DNA of 22,992 nt from Seison nebaliae (Eukaryota > Rotifera > Pararotatoria > Seisonacea > Seisonidae): positions 1 through 22,992 of the forward strand of contig JALJEE010002546.1 of NCBI GenBank assembly GCA_023231475.1, read 5' to 3'. Both the position numbers and the translations under genes were made by a program. The notes beneath the pieces are model-generated. The model searched no databases. It saw only the letters and a list, made by a program, of their open reading frames with translations, and was not told where the DNA came from. Shown one piece after another: positions 3,343 through 19,331 of this stretch. Every line of letters starts with the position of its first letter. Within the stretch, counting starts at the first letter, position 1.

Positions 3343-5318
3343 ATGATCAGTGATTCTTCGGATCCCATTTCTCTTTGGGAGACAGCGTGGACGATAGACG
3401 AGATAAGAGAATGTGGTACCAATTGGTCTTTGGCTGCCGATGCAGCTGTTCGATTTCATTTTAACTTTCTCTCTCAAATCTCTCTGATAGGTATTGCTTC
3501 GAATGAAGAAAGAAGAAGAAAATCTCTGGGAACAGATCAATCAATTTAATGAGAAATTGGACAATATCCAAAAGGATATTTCAGTTGAAATTAGTTTTTC
3601 GTCTTTTTTTATCTCCTCTCAAATTAGATGAACGAAGTAAGTTTGAATAATGTAGCAAATCGTTATCTTTTCTTATCAAATACCAAAATCATGGAAACGG
3701 TTTGGTTAATTTTTTCAAAATTTAATTCTTGATCTATTCTATGAAGAAAGTACGCGATTCGACAGGAAATGTTTATCAGAAAAAAGCAAAAGGTCAACAA
3801 ACTAATCAAGTGACTATCTCAATTTAACTTGTAAGTGAAAATTCTTTCTAAATAGAAAACGAAAGAAGAAATTGAAAGAATTGCAATAAATACATACGAC
3901 GATTGTATGAAAACGGCAGTTGATATTCTCAATGTTTCCATCGATAAGGAATTAGAGATCAACGAGAGTGAATCATCATTACCTTGGATCATTGGTTTAG
4001 TTTCTGCGAGAAGATTTATTTGAAAATATTCTTTAATTTATTATCAGGTTCCCCCAAATTCTTCTTTTATGATTCGGTTGGACTTGATACGATTGATGTT
4101 AATTTTTTTTTGAACTCTCCTAAATGTTAATGAATTTGATGATGAGCAGATGGATTCAACAAATGAGAATAATTCCCATGTGGATAAAAACCGATCTCGG
4201 AAAGAATCGATAACATCATCTTTGCCTCCTCCTCCACCACCATCACCTCCACCACTCTTCATGACGGATGATGGAGAAGAAACGAATGAGAAATCAGCTG
4301 AAAAAGAGAGCGATGTGCTAACGGAACGATCAAATTGTGAACCTTTGGAAGAGAATGATTCCATATTTCCGCAATCATATTCTTCAGCAACTGACGATGA
4401 GAAAGATGGAAAAGAAAAAGTTGTAATCGATGAAGAGAATTTAACTTCCCATCAATCTTTAGAAGAAGCAAATGAAACGATGATCGGAAACACCGATGTT
4501 CGTCTTTCCTTTCTAAAACTTTCTACAATTCCTTCCCCATCAGATGTCGATGGAATTTCAGAAGAAACCCATTCGACAACCAATGTCAATAGCGGACGAA
4601 TTAAAGATGAAATTCAGAAGGAGTGAATTGGAACCATCGGAATTTAATAAGTCTGATGTTCTCTCTTCATCTCCGCAACAATTACCATCGAACAATGAGA
4701 AGGTTCATATTCTTCTCATTTCCTTTTGTCAACAAAATAATTATTCATTTCCAGTCGGAACAATTCCAAAAGAAACAAACAAAAGAAGAAAAATCACATT
4801 TGTTTCATTCGAATGAAATTTCACGTCAAATGACAAACAAAAAATACATTAAGAAAGATATTGAAGAAGATGATAGTTCGAGTGATGATCTTTTTATCGA
4901 TTCCGATGAAGAGAACGATATGTTCGTCACCCAAATACCCAAAAGTTGACTTCCCGTTCTATAATTAATTTTTATTTCAAATTTAGAAATCATCGAATTA
5001 ATTCCAAACGCGAAAGAAACTGCAGAAAACTCGCTGAAAAAAAATGATCATGAAATCGATAGTGAGGAAGAAGAAGAAGATGATGATGATGATGATGATT
5101 ATTTATTAAATATTTTGAAGAAACAAAATAAGAAGAAAATGACAGATAATTCATCGAATAAGAAACTGCCAGAAATCGAGTCAAATACGGAAAATAAATC
5201 GAGTTCAGAAGAAAAAATTTCAAAGGAAGAAACAGATGAAGATTTATCTTCACTCGATTTCTCTTTAAATAATTCACATAATTCTTCAAATGATGAAGAT
5301 GATGATAATCAGGTTTAA
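3343..5318 (+). CDS. WASHC2: WASH complex subunit 2 (FAM21), ten exons
   Basis: WASHC2 links the actin-nucleating WASH complex to retromer on endosomes. Proposed exons: 3343-3447, 3491-3583, 3628-3699, 3747-3809, 3856-3994, 4048-4097, 4150-4497, 4544-4702, 4755-4944, 4987-5318, all phase-consistent, giving 516 residues. The FAM21 head is clear: W-T-I-D-E-I-R then NWSLAAD (27-33) followed by LL across intron 1, RYLFLSNTK (78-86), and LPWIIGS (153-159) restored by a phase-1 intron. The tail has a poly-proline run (200-209), a SIADEL box (about 305-310) like the FAM21 S-F-A-D-E-L motif, one LF-acidic-MF repeat (389-400) of the retromer-binding kind, and an Asp/Glu-rich end. At about 516 residues it is far shorter than vertebrate FAM21 (over 1,300). 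Intron 4 is the least certain: its donor could be GTGACT at 3810 or GTTTAT at 3771. The last exon may carry another donor at 5313. Confidence 0.85.
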
Positions 5319-7055
5319 ATTTGTTTCTGAAACAGGAAAAAATATTGATGAGAAATTGGCTGGAATAAGACGTTAGCAATACCAGATTTCCAACTAGTCA
5401 TAATGATTTGGAGTGGAAAGATAATATTTACGTTAAAATTAATTGTTTGTCATGAAGTTGTCATGACTTTGACCGATGTCATCAGCTGAAGGTCATTAAC
5501 GAATTGATCTGACACTTCTCCTTGCCTTGTTGGCTAAACAATGAACGAGTCGAATGAGAACTACCGAAATTTTACTTGTTATTCATATTTCTCTTTATAC
5601 CCTTACATCGTTGCGACATTCATTTCATAGTTCAATCGCATTCGACCTCTAGTCAATTCATGAACATGATAAAGGAACATAAATTTGTCGTTCTCCTTTC
5701 CGACTGAGAAATCACTTCATTTCCAGATAGATCAAAAATCTCTCTGTTTTCAGTCAGATCAGAAATCTCTCTATTTCCAGGTAAATCAAAAATCATCTTC
5801 TGGAGAAATTGAGGAGGAACACGTCGAACTAACATTGGAACATGTTTCACACGGATTGATGAGGAGAATACAAAAAATTAAGATATTTTAGATGAAACTA
5901 TTCCCAATTCTCCACTTTCATTTCATTCAAACTAATTCAAATTCGAGTCATAAGAAGTTTGGCGTCAATTTGCGATTATATAACAAATTGAGATTGAGAG
6001 ATTGAGAACAATTGTAAACATAGTGACCTTCATTCTTATTATCTTTCTCTCCATGTGTTACCGAACGACTGTAACCGAACAAGAGATGTGTTCGAGTTTC
6101 TCTCAAATTTTATAGCCCATATCAAATGAGCAAAAAGTTTAACACTCTCTCCACAAAACGAAGATTGTTGACTATGATTTTATGTTTTATCTCGTCAAAT
6201 TACATAAGACACGTCGCTTCACTGTTTTGTGAGAGCAATTAATTTTAGATCGAATTTCTCTTTTCTTCATCGATCACGAAAATCCATTTCTTCCTAATAA
6301 TAGCGAACTCTAATGTGTATTAGGTAACGTGGTGAAGAGAACAGTAGACTATGTCGGAAACTGGACGACGATCAAATAATTTCGTCCATTTTCTCCGTTT
6401 CTCTCTCTCTTTCTCTCTCAATTTATGAGTGTGTGGTAGGAGAAATAACTTTCGTGTAATTGACAATAATTATTATTTATTCAGAAAGAATTTGATATTG
6501 TAGTAACTTTCGAAAAAGTCTCTCGTTGCTATGACGATGAGGAGAGAAGGAATTGTAATTAATTTAAAACTATTTTGAACGGATAAACAAAGAATTATCG
6601 ATCTTAAATGAATCGATCGATTCCATTTGTCTAATGGGAATCGTGTTAAAATTTAAATCGTTACCTCTCATCAGTAACTGATGAATGACAACCGTTTCAT
6701 TTCTTTTCCCACATAATTATCGACCATAATTGGATCGTGAGAATCGAATTGTCGATAGCGGATTTATGTATATTGCATTCGGAATTATTCCGCAGTTAAA
6801 ATCATCATCTTCATATATACGTATAGAGAATAGAAAAAGAAATATGATACGAGAAAAAAAAATATCTTTGCATAAATTCCAACAGTTTCCTTTATTCTCT
6901 CGCTCTCTCCGTTGTGGTGAATATTTTTTTCTTTTTCATCAAATTATCGCTTCTTTCCGAAATGATCGATCAAGTGGAAAATAAATATATTCTTTCCACT
7001 TCCTACCACTTCCGTCACTTACAATCAATATATTAAAAATTGTATTCTCCTCTAG
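5319..7055. other. Long intergenic region with few coding signals
   Basis: No recognised gene. It holds the 27-nt tandem repeat at 5706-5786, pyrimidine-rich CTCTCT runs near 6394-6420, and otherwise AT-rich unique sequence. The last part ends in TTCTCCTCTAG at 7045-7055, a good splice acceptor directly before the ATG of the supervillin-like gene, so a 5'-leader intron probably lies here (for example GTCACT at 7014, 42 nt). Confidence 0.5.
5706..5786 (+). repeat. 27-nt tandem repeat, three copies
   Basis: Three consecutive 27-nt units start at 5706, 5733 and 5760, and a fourth begins at 5787 then diverges. In the + frame they read a nine-residue repeat of the form QKSL-x-FQ-x-D/N (EKSLHFQID, QKSLCFQSD, QKSLYFQVN). 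The open frame (about 5685-5891) has no ATG start and no recognisable homologue. It may be a minisatellite in non-coding DNA or part of an unrecognised exon. Confidence 0.7.
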
Positions 7056-8105
7056 ATGCCAGCAGTGAGGCAAACTGAATCTGGAAGAATTAAAGAAGAA
7101 ATCGTCAGTTCCATCCACTCCGACATGTCCAATGTCAGTCAAATGAGTCTTAAAGAGAGACTCGCTCTCTACAACGACAATTGTGAGAAAGTCTCACCGA
7201 AAAAGAAAATAATACCGAAAAAACTTTCAAATTCAAAATTAATTTCTCCAATTCATGAAAAAGAAAAGGAAAATACGAAAACGAAAGACAATCAATTAAA
7301 ATCGATTACTTCATCATCGACTGAAGAAAAGGAAAATTCATTTTCTTCAATTCAAAATCGAATAAAATCATTTGAAAAATCGAAGAAACCACAAAAAGTC
7401 GTTCATCGAGTTAAGAAAGATTTCGAGGCTTCTGATCGTCAACTATTCAAAAAAACCTTATCAAACGATGAGAAGGAGAGGAGTAAACAATTCTCCAATT
7501 CAACTGATCTCTCACAAAAATCGAATGTTTCCAATTCCATCGTCAAACAACAAGTTCAGGATCGAGTAGCTTTCCGAAATAATTTGGACAAATTAATCAA
7601 TCGTGGGCCCAATCGAAGAAAAAATACCAGACCAATAACCATGTACGAAGTTTCGGCAGAGGAAGTCGAATCGCAATATATGACACCGTTCCGAGTTCTA
7701 CCGGTGGACGAGACGAACAACAACAGTTCACGAAAAGAAGAAAATGAGGAAAATAAAGAGAAGGAAGAAAAAACGAATGATCAACAAAAAGAAATTTATA
7801 AAGTTTAAATTAATTTTTTAAATTTAATTTTAATCAAATTAATTTTAATTTTTAAATATTAGGTGAGAGCGAACATCCCAACTCCGAGGAGAATGAAGAA
7901 TTCGAGAACGACGACGAATGTATTGAATGAGGTGGCTAATGAGAAACCATCAAAACCTCGTAAAACTATCCATCCAGCAATGGCGAAAATTGAAGATGAT
8001 TTTAATAGAAATTTATTTTCGTCTGATAATGATGAGGATGAATCTCTTCGTTTGCACGGGAAAATCAATAAGAAAACACATCGCTTTTATAAACCTGATC
8101 CTTAA
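7056..8105 (+). CDS. Short supervillin N-terminal-like protein, two exons
   Basis: Exons 7056-7802 and 7863-8105 join in phase 0 across a 60-nt intron (GTTTAA...TATTAG), giving 329 residues. It is highly charged and looks disordered. MSLKERLAL (30-38) resembles the supervillin motif M-S-I-K-E-R-L-A-L. RVAFRNNLDKLI (170-181) followed by RRKNTRPITMYEV (187-199) resembles the supervillin segment with R-Y-x-T-Q-P-(V/I)-T-x-x-E-V, which lies in its actin- and myosin-binding N-terminal half. No gelsolin repeats or headpiece occur within the exons or in the next 1.5 kb, so this would be a gelsolin-less relative. By analogy it may bind cortical actin or myosin II; this is inference. The start is the first ATG after a strong acceptor (AG at 7054-7055). 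An AATAAA lies about 120 nt after the stop. Confidence 0.6.
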
Positions 8106-16318: not shown

Positions 16319-18658
16319 ATGAAGATAGAATTTGACGATTTAACGGTTTTATTTCCGTACGATTTCATATATCCCGAACAATATTTGTATATGAAAGAAC
16401 TTAAGAAATGTTTGGATCAGGAAGGACATTGTCTTCTCGAAATGCCGACAGGAACGGGAAAAACGGTTTGTCTTCTCTCACTCACCGTCGCTTATATGTT
16501 GGCCCACAACGATAAAATGAAGAAGATAATTTATTGTTCTCGAACAATTCCAGAAATGAATAAAGTGATTAATGAATTGAAATGTCTTTTCACTTATTAT
16601 AAGAAAATGAATCGTCCAACTATGATTGATGGTAAAGAGATGTTGGGTTTTATTTTGTCATCTCGAAAGAATTTGTGTCTGCACTCTCGAGTCTCGCAAA
16701 TGAAGAGTGGGCGGGAAGTGGATGGATTGTGTCATCGATTGATGGTCAATCAGAAGATAATGGAAGAGACATCGGACGATATTGAAGATCAAATGGAGAA
16801 TTTGGAAGTGTGTAAATTCTATATTGATCTAGAGAAGGAATTGGATGAGAGAGGAGCATGTGGTAGTATGGAGAGTGGTGGTGTGTTCGCTTTGGAAGAT
16901 CTGAAAGAATTGGGTGAGAAAGAAGGTAAATGTCCATATTTCATGGCGAGACGAATGTTGGAAGATGCTCATATCATCGTTTATTCTTATTCTTATTTAT
17001 TGGACGTGAAAATTGCTCAGAAAATTTCCATCAAATTTCCTGAAGAATCAGTGGTAATTTTTGACGAGGCTCATAATATCGATTCGGTTTGTATCGATTC
17101 TCTCAGTCTCACTCTCAACAATCGCACATTGGAAGACGCGTCAAAAAGTTGTGAAGTGCTCACCACTCGATTAAGTCGAATGAATGAGAAAGTATTGAAA
17201 GATGAATATAGAACCATATTAAAATCGATAGAAGAGAGGAAAGAGAAGAGGAATCAGAATGCTCTCCTCGCCAATCCCATCAGAGATGATGATTTGTTAA
17301 TGGAAAAAATTCCAGGAAATATGAGAAATGGAAAACATTTCGTACAATTCCTTAAACGTGTCATCGAATATATCCAATCGAGAATGAGAGCACAACACGA
17401 TATACACGAATCGCCCCCTCTCTTCCTTCGAGATATCGGTCAACGAATGTTAATCGAAAGATCTCATCTTCAATTCGCTGCGGAACGTCTCCGAATTCTC
17501 ATGGACACATTAAAAATCGAAGATATTCTCAATTACACAGCTCTTACCGTTGTCGCTGATCTTTGCACGTTGACAGCGACTTATGTCAAAGGTTTCAGTA
17601 TCATTATTGAACCATATGGTGGAAATAAGAAAATGTCGAACGGTTTGTTGAAATTGGATCCAATTCTCACATTCGCTTGTCACGATGCCAGTATCGCGAT
17701 AAAACCGATTTTAAAAAAATACCGAAATGTCGCCATCACTAGCGGAACGTTATCTCCTTTGAACATGTTGCCGAGAATTTTGGATTTTATTCCAATTCTT
17801 TCCTGCTCGTTTACTATGTCGTTATCACGACAAAATCTTTGTCCACTTGTCGTTTCGAAAGGGAATGATCATATTTCAATGACCACAAAATTCCAAACAA
17901 GAGATGACGAAAGTATCTCCAGAAATTATGGATTGTTACTCATTAGTTTATGTAAAACTGTTCCTGATGGTATAGTCGCTTTCTTTACATCTTATTCTTA
18001 TCTTGAATCCACTATCGCTTCCTGGTACGAACAACGAGTGTTGGAGCAATTGCAAAAACATAAATTAGTTTTCATCGAATCACCTGATTCGAAAGCAACA
18101 AGTTTAGCACTTTTCAATTATCAGCGCGCTTGTCAAAGTGGACGAGGAGCTCTCCTTCTTTCCGTTGCACGTGGCAAAGTATCAGAAGGAGTCGATTTCG
18201 ATCATCATTATGGTCGTTGTGTAGTGATGTTTGGAGTTCCATTCGTCTATACCAAGTCGAGAACGTTAAGAGCTAGATTGGAATTCCTGCGTGAACGGTA
18301 CAATATCAGGGAAACGGATTTCCTCACTTTCGACGCCATGAGACATGCAGCTCAATGTGTCGGACGAGTATTGAGAGGAAAAACGGATTATGGTCTGATG
18401 GTGTTCGCTGACGCCAGATTCGGACGTGCCGATAAACGTTCTCGTCTTCCCAAATGGTTAGGCGAGTACATGAGAGATGGTGTTTGTGATCTCACAATCG
18501 ATGAGTGTATTTTTGTGGCGAAACGTTATTTCAAAATGATGGGCAAACCAATGACAACAAAAAATCAATTAGGTGTAGCTTTATTGAATGAAGATCATTT
18601 GAAAGATCCGGAATTAGTTGAATCATTAAAAAAAAAAGTTGTTGTCGCTAATTTTTAA
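16319..18658 (+). CDS. ERCC2: TFIIH helicase subunit XPD / ERCC2
   Basis: A 779-residue single-exon protein matching XPD, the 5'-3' iron-sulphur DNA helicase of TFIIH used in nucleotide excision repair and as a scaffold for the CAK kinase in transcription. Walker A is MPTGTGKT (42-49, K48). The four Fe-S cysteines are C120, C138, C165 and C205, with more residues between C138-C165 and C165-C205 than in human XPD. The DEAH box is D249-H252, in VVIFDEAHNID. Family blocks continue: AITSGTLSP (472-480), SVARGKVSEGVDF (615-627) and motif VI QCVGRVLRGKTDYG (679-692) with both arginines. The Arch domain lies between about 260 and 440. The length is close to the human 760, and the C-terminal LGVALLNEDHL block is present. 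Nothing is missing, so it should be active. The start is the ATG that aligns with the family N-terminus (MKIEFDDLTVLFPYDFIYPEQ). Confidence 0.96.
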   Translation: MKIEFDDLTVLFPYDFIYPEQYLYMKELKKCLDQEGHCLLEMPTGTGKTVCLLSLTVAYMLAHNDKMKKIIYCSRTIPEMNKVINELKCLFTYYKKMNRPTMIDGKEMLGFILSSRKNLCLHSRVSQMKSGREVDGLCHRLMVNQKIMEETSDDIEDQMENLEVCKFYIDLEKELDERGACGSMESGGVFALEDLKELGEKEGKCPYFMARRMLEDAHIIVYSYSYLLDVKIAQKISIKFPEESVVIFDEAHNIDSVCIDSLSLTLNNRTLEDASKSCEVLTTRLSRMNEKVLKDEYRTILKSIEERKEKRNQNALLANPIRDDDLLMEKIPGNMRNGKHFVQFLKRVIEYIQSRMRAQHDIHESPPLFLRDIGQRMLIERSHLQFAAERLRILMDTLKIEDILNYTALTVVADLCTLTATYVKGFSIIIEPYGGNKKMSNGLLKLDPILTFACHDASIAIKPILKKYRNVAITSGTLSPLNMLPRILDFIPILSCSFTMSLSRQNLCPLVVSKGNDHISMTTKFQTRDDESISRNYGLLLISLCKTVPDGIVAFFTSYSYLESTIASWYEQRVLEQLQKHKLVFIESPDSKATSLALFNYQRACQSGRGALLLSVARGKVSEGVDFDHHYGRCVVMFGVPFVYTKSRTLRARLEFLRERYNIRETDFLTFDAMRHAAQCVGRVLRGKTDYGLMVFADARFGRADKRSRLPKWLGEYMRDGVCDLTIDECIFVAKRYFKMMGKPMTTKNQLGVALLNEDHLKDPELVESLKKKVVVANF

Positions 18659-18792: not shown

Positions 18793-19331
18793 TTAAACAT
18801 AAGTATCTTGACCAGAGTCTTCATTTTTATCATTATCTGATTCTATCTTTATTTCAATGGTTTCCTTAACATCTTCATCGTTTGTTGGTTGGTTCGTTAT
18901 CAATTTCGTTTCTTCATTCATCTCATCATTCGGTTGTGAATTTTGGATGAATTTCATTTCATCGTTCGTCTCATTATCTGGTTGTGAATTTTGGATAAAT
19001 TTCGTTTCCTCAAAATTGTCACTAGTTGTCGGTTGGTTTCGATCCATTTGCTCCTCATTCGCCTCAGTAACTAAAAGATTTTTCATGAATTTTCGACTAC
19101 GTACTGATTTCAAATGATAATAAATTCCACCACTGAGAGTCAGACCAACTAGTAATCCTAAACCGACAATAACGATCGTATAATCGATCGGTCTAAATTG
19201 AATATCTTGTGAAGCGAGTGCTGGAAAAGTTGGAGGTGTGATAGTTGAAGAAACGAAGAAAAACTTTTCGTGTTAATGCCCACAAGAATTTGGAGGAAGA
19301 GAATAATACAGGGAGAAACCAAATGAAACAT
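18793..19331 (-). CDS. Small type I membrane protein with acidic repeat tail, two exons
   Basis: Exon 1 (19331-19265) and exon 2 (19220-18793) join in phase 1 across a 44-nt intron (GTTTTT...TTCCAG), giving 164 residues. Exon 1 encodes a signal peptide (1 to about 20, hydrophobic core CIILFLQILVGI). A short outer segment (about 21-36) follows, then one clear membrane helix (37-57, rich in G, V, L and I), then a basic stop-transfer stretch (HLKSVRSRKFMK). The cytoplasmic tail is acidic and holds three 16-residue repeats starting at 94, 110 and 126 (ETKFIQNSQP type). It ends DTYV, which fits a class I PDZ ligand (T/S-x-hydrophobic). No homologue is recognised. Neither exon alone makes a sensible protein, whereas the spliced product has coherent topology, which supports the intron. 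Confidence 0.62.

Follow-up and report, generated by a model that had tools for sequence, protein, structure and literature searches.

A probable shift of 5' splice sites from GTR to GTT, with a matching base change in U1 snRNA genes, in Seison nebaliae

The window analysed here, i.e., the whole stretch of 22,992 nucleotides of DNA of the seisonid rotifer Seison nebaliae, is contig C409 of a 36.03-Mb assembly of 846 contigs. Between positions 3448 and 4986 of its forward strand it carries nine tiny introns of a gene that, when spliced, gives one open frame of 516 aa. The product is identical (100% over 100% of the 516-aa length) to the deposited protein SNEBB_007880, although such a match with a deposited model does not amount to RNA proof. 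The deposited protein has 844 aa and, beyond the nine introns, also uses introns at 5313-7055 and 7803-7862. The name WASHC2/FAM21, given to the gene in the preliminary description of this DNA, is tentative and found no confirmation in sequence searches. A search of Pfam with the product (P0121) gave no family match at E 1, its first 174 residues gave no solved-structure match below E 0.03, and a homologue search with the 516-aa protein, in which 7989 candidates were scored, listed the deposited protein itself alone. Elsewhere in the window, the XPD gene (16319-18655, forward strand) is an uninterrupted frame of 779 aa. Its deposited counterpart, SNEBB_007884, may be trimmed or spliced differently, since it has 760 aa and is 98% identical to that frame. 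A broken stretch resembling reverse transcriptase lies at about 870-1323 of the forward strand; it contains GVRQGCILAPWIFG, presumably a reverse-transcriptase motif, and is probably a decayed retroelement.

The joins of the first six introns of the interrupted gene, all on the forward strand, are the same in SNEBB_007880: 3448..3490 (43 nt, donor GTTCGA), 3584..3627 (44 nt, GTTGAA), 3700..3746 (47 nt, GTTTGG), 3810..3855 (46 nt, GTGACT), 3995..4047 (53 nt, GTTTAG), and 4098..4149 (52 nt, GTTAAT). Introns 7 (4498..4543, 46 nt, GTTCGT) and 8 (4703..4754, 52 nt, GTTCAT) are present in SNEBB_007880 and were also called by our gene model with all donor positions scored, and intron 9 (4945..4986, 42 nt, GTTGAC) is likewise present in SNEBB_007880 and was called even when +3 was left unscored. 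Two further introns of the same strand follow. Intron 10 (5313..7055, 1743 nt, GTTTAA), absent from the preliminary description, is inferred from the SNEBB_007880 join NQ/MPAV, and intron 11 (7803..7862, 60 nt, GTTTAA) corresponds to the SNEBB_007880 join IYK/VRAN as read on the sequence. The minus-strand gene at 18793-19331 contains one intron (19221..19264, 44 nt, GTTTTT), which was called by the gene model, also with +3 unscored. The donor of intron 4 is uncertain, since other frame-keeping splice choices exist in its region, one of them GTTTAT at 3771. The nine frame-keeping introns of 42-53 nt of the preliminary description are borne out by the identity with SNEBB_007880, and all nine of its donor sequences could be reproduced from the window. 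Its count of T at +3 in 10 of 11 introns becomes 11 of 12 once the intron at 5313-7055 is added, the exception being the GTGACT of intron 4 at 3810. Judged from the sequence, the nine tiny introns are the structure of this gene.

Similar introns occur in other genes of S. nebaliae, in which they could be anchored by homology. In seven genes chosen by hand (six of 47 intron-bearing predictions, and LUC7), T is present at +3 in 15 of 15 anchored introns. One intron of calcineurin, two of a homeobox gene (within the homeodomain), one of METTL16, two of AP-2, three of POFUT1, and one of U1-C give gap-free joins when compared with solved structures. In the case of LUC7, the six exons joined across five introns form one PF03194 match of 241.8 bits vs. 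52-60 bits for the pieces; it is this continuous match that supports the joins. The spliced product also aligns with yeast Luc7, but the alignment contains gaps, one of which adjoins the first join. The boundaries of the anchored introns come from a model that scores +3, and the LUC7 donors were chosen by eye; 8 of the 10 model-derived introns were also found with +3 unscored (the exceptions are L021 7947 and L035 1458), and for 10 of the 14 short anchored introns there is no frame-keeping GT..AG alternative lacking T at +3 within 18 nt. Three introns at or beyond the edge of an alignment were left out of the 15, namely, L021 8160 (GTTTTA, 87 nt), L035 1271 (GTTATT), and L036 1655 (GTTCGG); each of them has T at +3.

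One of the LUC7 introns, intron 2 (L038:1014-1502), is 489 nt long and begins with GTTAGTA, a near full match to a U1 with A at position 6 (see below). Its donor being GTTAGT, the GTT pattern extends beyond the tiny introns. It may be that stronger donors are required in longer introns; a GTTAG start is seen in two of the eight listed introns over 65 nt, which are too few for a test. An exception to the GTT pattern was found in the ATP synthase c gene (L022:4309-4798, minus strand), where a 41-nt GTGAGT intron and a GTTTTT intron occur together. Because of its position in the unconserved leader, the GTGAGT intron was not counted among the 15 anchored introns; its join is also present in the deposited SNEBB_006515, the C-terminus of which departs from the open frame.

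The canonical 5' splice site of metazoan U2-type introns is MAG/GTRAGT, recognized by a U1 snRNA of the 5' end AUACUUACCUG. The donors of S. nebaliae were tabulated in a sample of 257,024 bases (0.7% of the genome), which comprised 200 kb drawn from 20 contigs in addition to the window, the snRNA loci, and the protein loci, and includes the overlap between loci L001 and L002. The gene model used was trained on long frames and required GT..AG. A variant based on codon usage only was too weak, missing most of the window introns, and was replaced by a context codon model, which at first, when donors carried no further weights, yielded 20 introns; T was at +3 in 16 of these. Before splice signals were learned, eight control dinucleotides yielded 18-29 introns of scattered lengths vs. 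25 for GT-AG; since these untrained controls gave about as many introns, only the trained class of short introns (up to 65 nt), with reversed and complemented sequences as controls, was used. Splice signals and lengths were then learned with one donor position at a time left unscored, +3 remaining unscored throughout all rounds that led to its own table, and one duplicate was removed from the counts.

Results of the fully trained run, in which lengths of up to 120 nt were allowed, comprise 73 introns, namely, 65 short ones of 41-62 nt and 8 of 85-115 nt. When lengths of up to 900 nt were permitted and T at +3 was scored, 80 introns were listed, of which 8 exceed 65 nt. In the sample the trained model called 64 short introns, as opposed to 4 in the reversed and 1 in the complemented sequence. 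Its sensitivity is low, as it recovered 4 of the 11 short introns of the window, 2 of these with +3 unscored. It also calls a candidate intron at 1873-1918 in the window.

The most pronounced signal is that of +3, where T is present in 49 of 54 short introns (C in 2, G in 2, A in 1) under the model with +3 masked. In non-coding sequence, too, GT is followed most often by T (0.42), and against this background the enrichment has a binomial p of 3.6e-14, calculated for 50 of 55 introns before removal of the duplicate. When each of the remaining positions was masked in turn, the counts were A 34, G 18, T 9, and C 4 of 65 at -1; A 33, T 11, C 9, and G 7 of 60 at -2; T 24, A 18, C 11, and G 4 of 57 at +4; T 21, A 15, G 15, and C 14 of 65 at +5; and T 29, A 25, C 4, and G 3 of 61 at +6. 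Relative to the local background, the information content amounts to 0.78 bits at +3, 0.39 at -1, 0.21 at -2, and 0.06-0.15 at +4 to +6. The view that +4 to +6 are nearly random thus holds, and the last exon base, described earlier as not fixed, is indeed variable but biased. A donor profile dominated by GTAAGT or GTGAGT, which was named at the outset as the one that would speak against the GTT donors, was not found: in the +3-masked 257-kb sample GTGAGT occurs in 1 of 54 donors and GTAAGT in 0 of 54.

The GT-AG ends, assumed by the gene model, join coding sequence in frame, as is characteristic of U2-type introns, and the joins were checked by homology and against the deposited model. At +3 to +6 the short introns lack the GTRAGT complementarity to canonical U1, with T at +3 and near-background composition at +4 to +6. 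The system of S. nebaliae can therefore be classed as a variant of U2-type splicing in which GT-AG is kept and GTRAGT is not. Genome-wide pattern counts (407 for GTTAGT...TTTYAG vs. 682 for its backward-pattern control, and 122 for the GTGAGT pattern vs. 213) were set aside as giving no support, since they are below their own controls. No clear branch-point word stands out in 64 introns.

The search for U1 snRNA genes revealed four with scores over the cut-off of Rfam family RF00003 (97.4 to 112.9 bits vs. 69.5), a number that is a lower bound, as 41 of 293 candidates were scored. Only one of the four has the canonical 5' end AUACUUACC; in the other three, the 5' ends of which are AUACUAACC or AUACUAACU, position 6 is A. 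In particular, the 5' end of L002 (AUACUUACCUGG) equals the family consensus, L001 and L003 share AUACUAACCUGG with A at position 6, and L004 (AUACUAACUUGG) has U at position 9 in addition to A at position 6. The conserved ACUUACC is accordingly present in L002, and the other three read ACUAACC or ACUAACU; these three genes reach the RF00003 score without its conserved 5' end. In the established pairing scheme, position 6 of U1 pairs with donor position +3, and position 9 pairs with -1. A single contig carries L001 and L002 at a distance of 1.5 kb from each other, which shows that the two come from one genome.

All four U1 genes share a common fold, in which 15 of the 41 predicted pairs are changed on both sides with pairing kept. 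The loop CAUUGCAC is present in the three genes with A at position 6, and L002 has CAGAGCAC instead. The 3' box AATTAAACT follows L001, L003, L004, the U2 gene L031, and the U5 gene L034 exactly, and L002 with one mismatch. A promoter-like motif, which was derived from the sequences preceding L002, L004, U2 L031, and U5 themselves, is found upstream of these four genes with 0-1 mismatches of 10, and L001 and L003 lack it (at least 3 mismatches of 10). A genome-wide search for ATACTNACYTGGC returned the four U1 genes and one further site; this fifth U1-like 5' end (on contig C629) was dropped, as no U1 body is visible in 400 bases.

The fit of U1 changes to the donors was assessed by scoring all 33 single-base changes of U1 positions 1-11 against the donor profile. 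With respect to in-register pairing, the change of U6 to A ranks first of 33 (+0.87 expected pairs), the change of U6 to G second (+0.45), and the change of C9 to U third (+0.38). The mean number of in-register pairs of 11 rises from 5.33 for canonical U1 to 6.19 for U1 with A6 and 6.76 for U1 with A6 and U9, and the mean duplex energy over the 54 donors of the +3-masked table changes from -2.35 through -2.88 to -3.22, respectively. By this energy measure, in which the duplexes with the same donors are unconstrained, the change of U6 to G, which is seen in no U1 copy, ranked first of 33 and that to A fourth. This conflict between the two rankings is real; we gave the in-register count more weight, since free duplexes permit other registers. 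Counter to a choice of donors by pairing only, such pairing would favour AGT at +4 to +6, and the observed bases at these positions do not follow it. Taken together, a U1 change is probably the cause of the GTT donors, as far as can be judged from sequence.

Other parts of the splicing machinery appear ordinary in their recognition sites. The single U6 copy found has a canonical ACAGAGA box, the three U2 copies found contain GUAGUA, and the loop of U5 is canonical. Homologues of U1-C, METTL16 (with the NPPF motif), LUC7, and SNRNP27 are present in the genome. Of the two alterations proposed earlier, that of U1 has thus gained sequence support (A at position 6 in three of the four genes found), and that of U6 was not borne out, given the canonical box and the presence of METTL16 and SNRNP27 homologues. 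A role of small intron size through intron definition, suggested there as the alternative, would fit the lengths of 41-62 nt. The third U2 copy (L033, on contig C796) is probably a pseudogene, since it scores more weakly (78.7 bits) and has no 3' box (4 mismatches of 9). The donors of minor introns are of the RTATCC type, and none of the 65 short introns starts with GTATCC; a search for U12 snRNA gave 0 matches in the genome and was also silent in its control genomes. In the U1-C gene (L036), residues 25-29 are NQGKN vs. human CSGRK, with differences at 25, 26, 28, and 29. Possibly, this change, adjoining the helix of U1 and donor, is part of the same adaptation. According to the parts of the report available to us, a human U1-C double mutant R28G/K29S gave no enhancement of E complex, and single alanine changes near or at residue 28 left yeast growth unaffected (PMC4383343).

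Results of our analysis indicate, with a probability of roughly 0.8, that the ordinary U2-type introns of S. nebaliae have come to use GTT in place of GTR as their 5' splice-site code, and that a base change in U1 accompanied this shift. A6 would restore a Watson-Crick pair with T at +3, provided that U1 with A6 is expressed and pairs in this way in the cell. U9, present in one of the A6 copies, is able to pair with either A or G, which are the most frequent bases at the end of the exon, and may thereby help at -1. The canonical copy has been retained, perhaps for the small number of GTRAGT introns, of which the GTGAGT intron in ATP synthase c is an example. As +4 to +6 are almost without information, recognition probably relies on about five pairs (-2 to +3) and on intron definition, with introns of about 40-62 nt and T-rich 3' ends; the short length may offset the missing pairing at +4 to +6. 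The recognition sites of U6, U5, and U2 are unchanged. It is somewhat less certain, and still favoured by us, that the swap is compensatory and genome-wide (R to T at +3, U to A at position 6 of U1) and that U1s with A6, with A6 and U9, and of canonical sequence divide the donors among them.

Among other explanations, T at +3 could be a neutral effect of an AT-rich genome, in which donors have decayed to GT and common bases. The GC content of the window (32.6%), the prevalence of T after GT in non-coding sequence, and the near-background state of +4 to +6 agree with it. Nevertheless, +3 is T in 91% of the short introns, with the p value given above, whereas +4 to +6, subject to the same composition, are hardly enriched, and composition leaves unexplained why the partner base is A in three U1 genes, so that we regard this explanation as very improbable. 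Hardly any credence can be given to the possibility that the tiny introns stem from errors of the assembly or from by-eye patching of a decayed gene. Nine interruptions within 1.5 kb, in a window where most of the other genes form long single frames, might suggest it, but the joins are identical in SNEBB_007880, similar introns elsewhere join conserved domains without gaps or raise one continuous domain match, and the short introns of the sample far outnumber those of its reversed and complemented versions.

More weight, albeit still at a low probability, should be given to the possibility that the U1 genes with A6 are pseudogenes or have another role, the introns being read by canonical U1 or by no U1, and T at +3 resulting from U6, a protein, or intron definition. 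The canonical L002 scores like the best A6 copy (112.4 vs. 112.9 bits) and has the promoter-like motif that L001 and L003 lack, and the U1-C protein differs from human U1-C at residues 25, 26, 28, and 29, in the region of the R28G/K29S mutant as described in the available part of that study (PMC4383343). On the other hand, the A6 copies retain exact 3' boxes, covarying stems, and the CAUUGCAC loop that is lost in L002, the changed base of U1 is precisely the partner of the changed base of the donor, and U6 is canonical.

The 5' end of U1 helps to read every intron and is treated as nearly immutable. If the donor and U1 indeed changed together, S. nebaliae would show how a splice code can be rewritten, the ingredients being extra U1 copies, a shifted base, the retention of the old copy, and tiny introns. 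Among the matches listed in a search of open-access PMC, there was no published case of a matched change of GTT donors and U1. In the S. nebaliae genome report by Mauer et al. (2021, PMC8351084), the sections available to us deal with the span of introns rather than with the sequence of splice sites, and indicate that RNA-seq of this species (22.9 million pairs) already exists.

The system of S. nebaliae shares with the canonical metazoan one the GT-AG ends, the T-rich 3' ends, U1 of the RF00003 family, and canonical U2, U5, and U6 sites, and differs from it in T at +3, in the almost uninformative +4 to +6, and in A6, which is present in all but one of the four U1 genes found. As far as the accessible parts of the respective papers describe them, three other systems invite comparison. 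The diplonemid S. specki, like Seison, has a canonical U1 gene and in addition one whose 5' end is altered; this alternative U1 has a run of C, its complementarity to the canonical donor logo is described as comparable (PMC12621601), and in contrast to Seison the variant comes without base-for-base compensation shown in those parts. In Saccharomycotina, a lineage-wide change likewise concerns one donor position beyond GT, as +4 switches from A to U are linked to METTL16 and SNRNP27K. However, Parker et al. found ACUUACC to be invariant wherever U1 was identified (227 of 230 Saccharomycotina and 9 of 10 outgroups) despite changed donors (PMC10581693), whereas in Seison U1 is changed and METTL16 and SNRNP27 homologues are present. 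Fritillaria borealis is, like Seison, an animal with donors shifted genome-wide and a U2-type spliceosome kept. In this species 95% of introns escape GT/AG, the two U1 versions have identical, strictly preserved 5' ends, and its authors propose U2AF duplication and m6A changes, a divergent U1 not being the route taken (PMC13326754). In Seison, unlike in F. borealis, GT-AG is kept and it is U1 itself that has changed.
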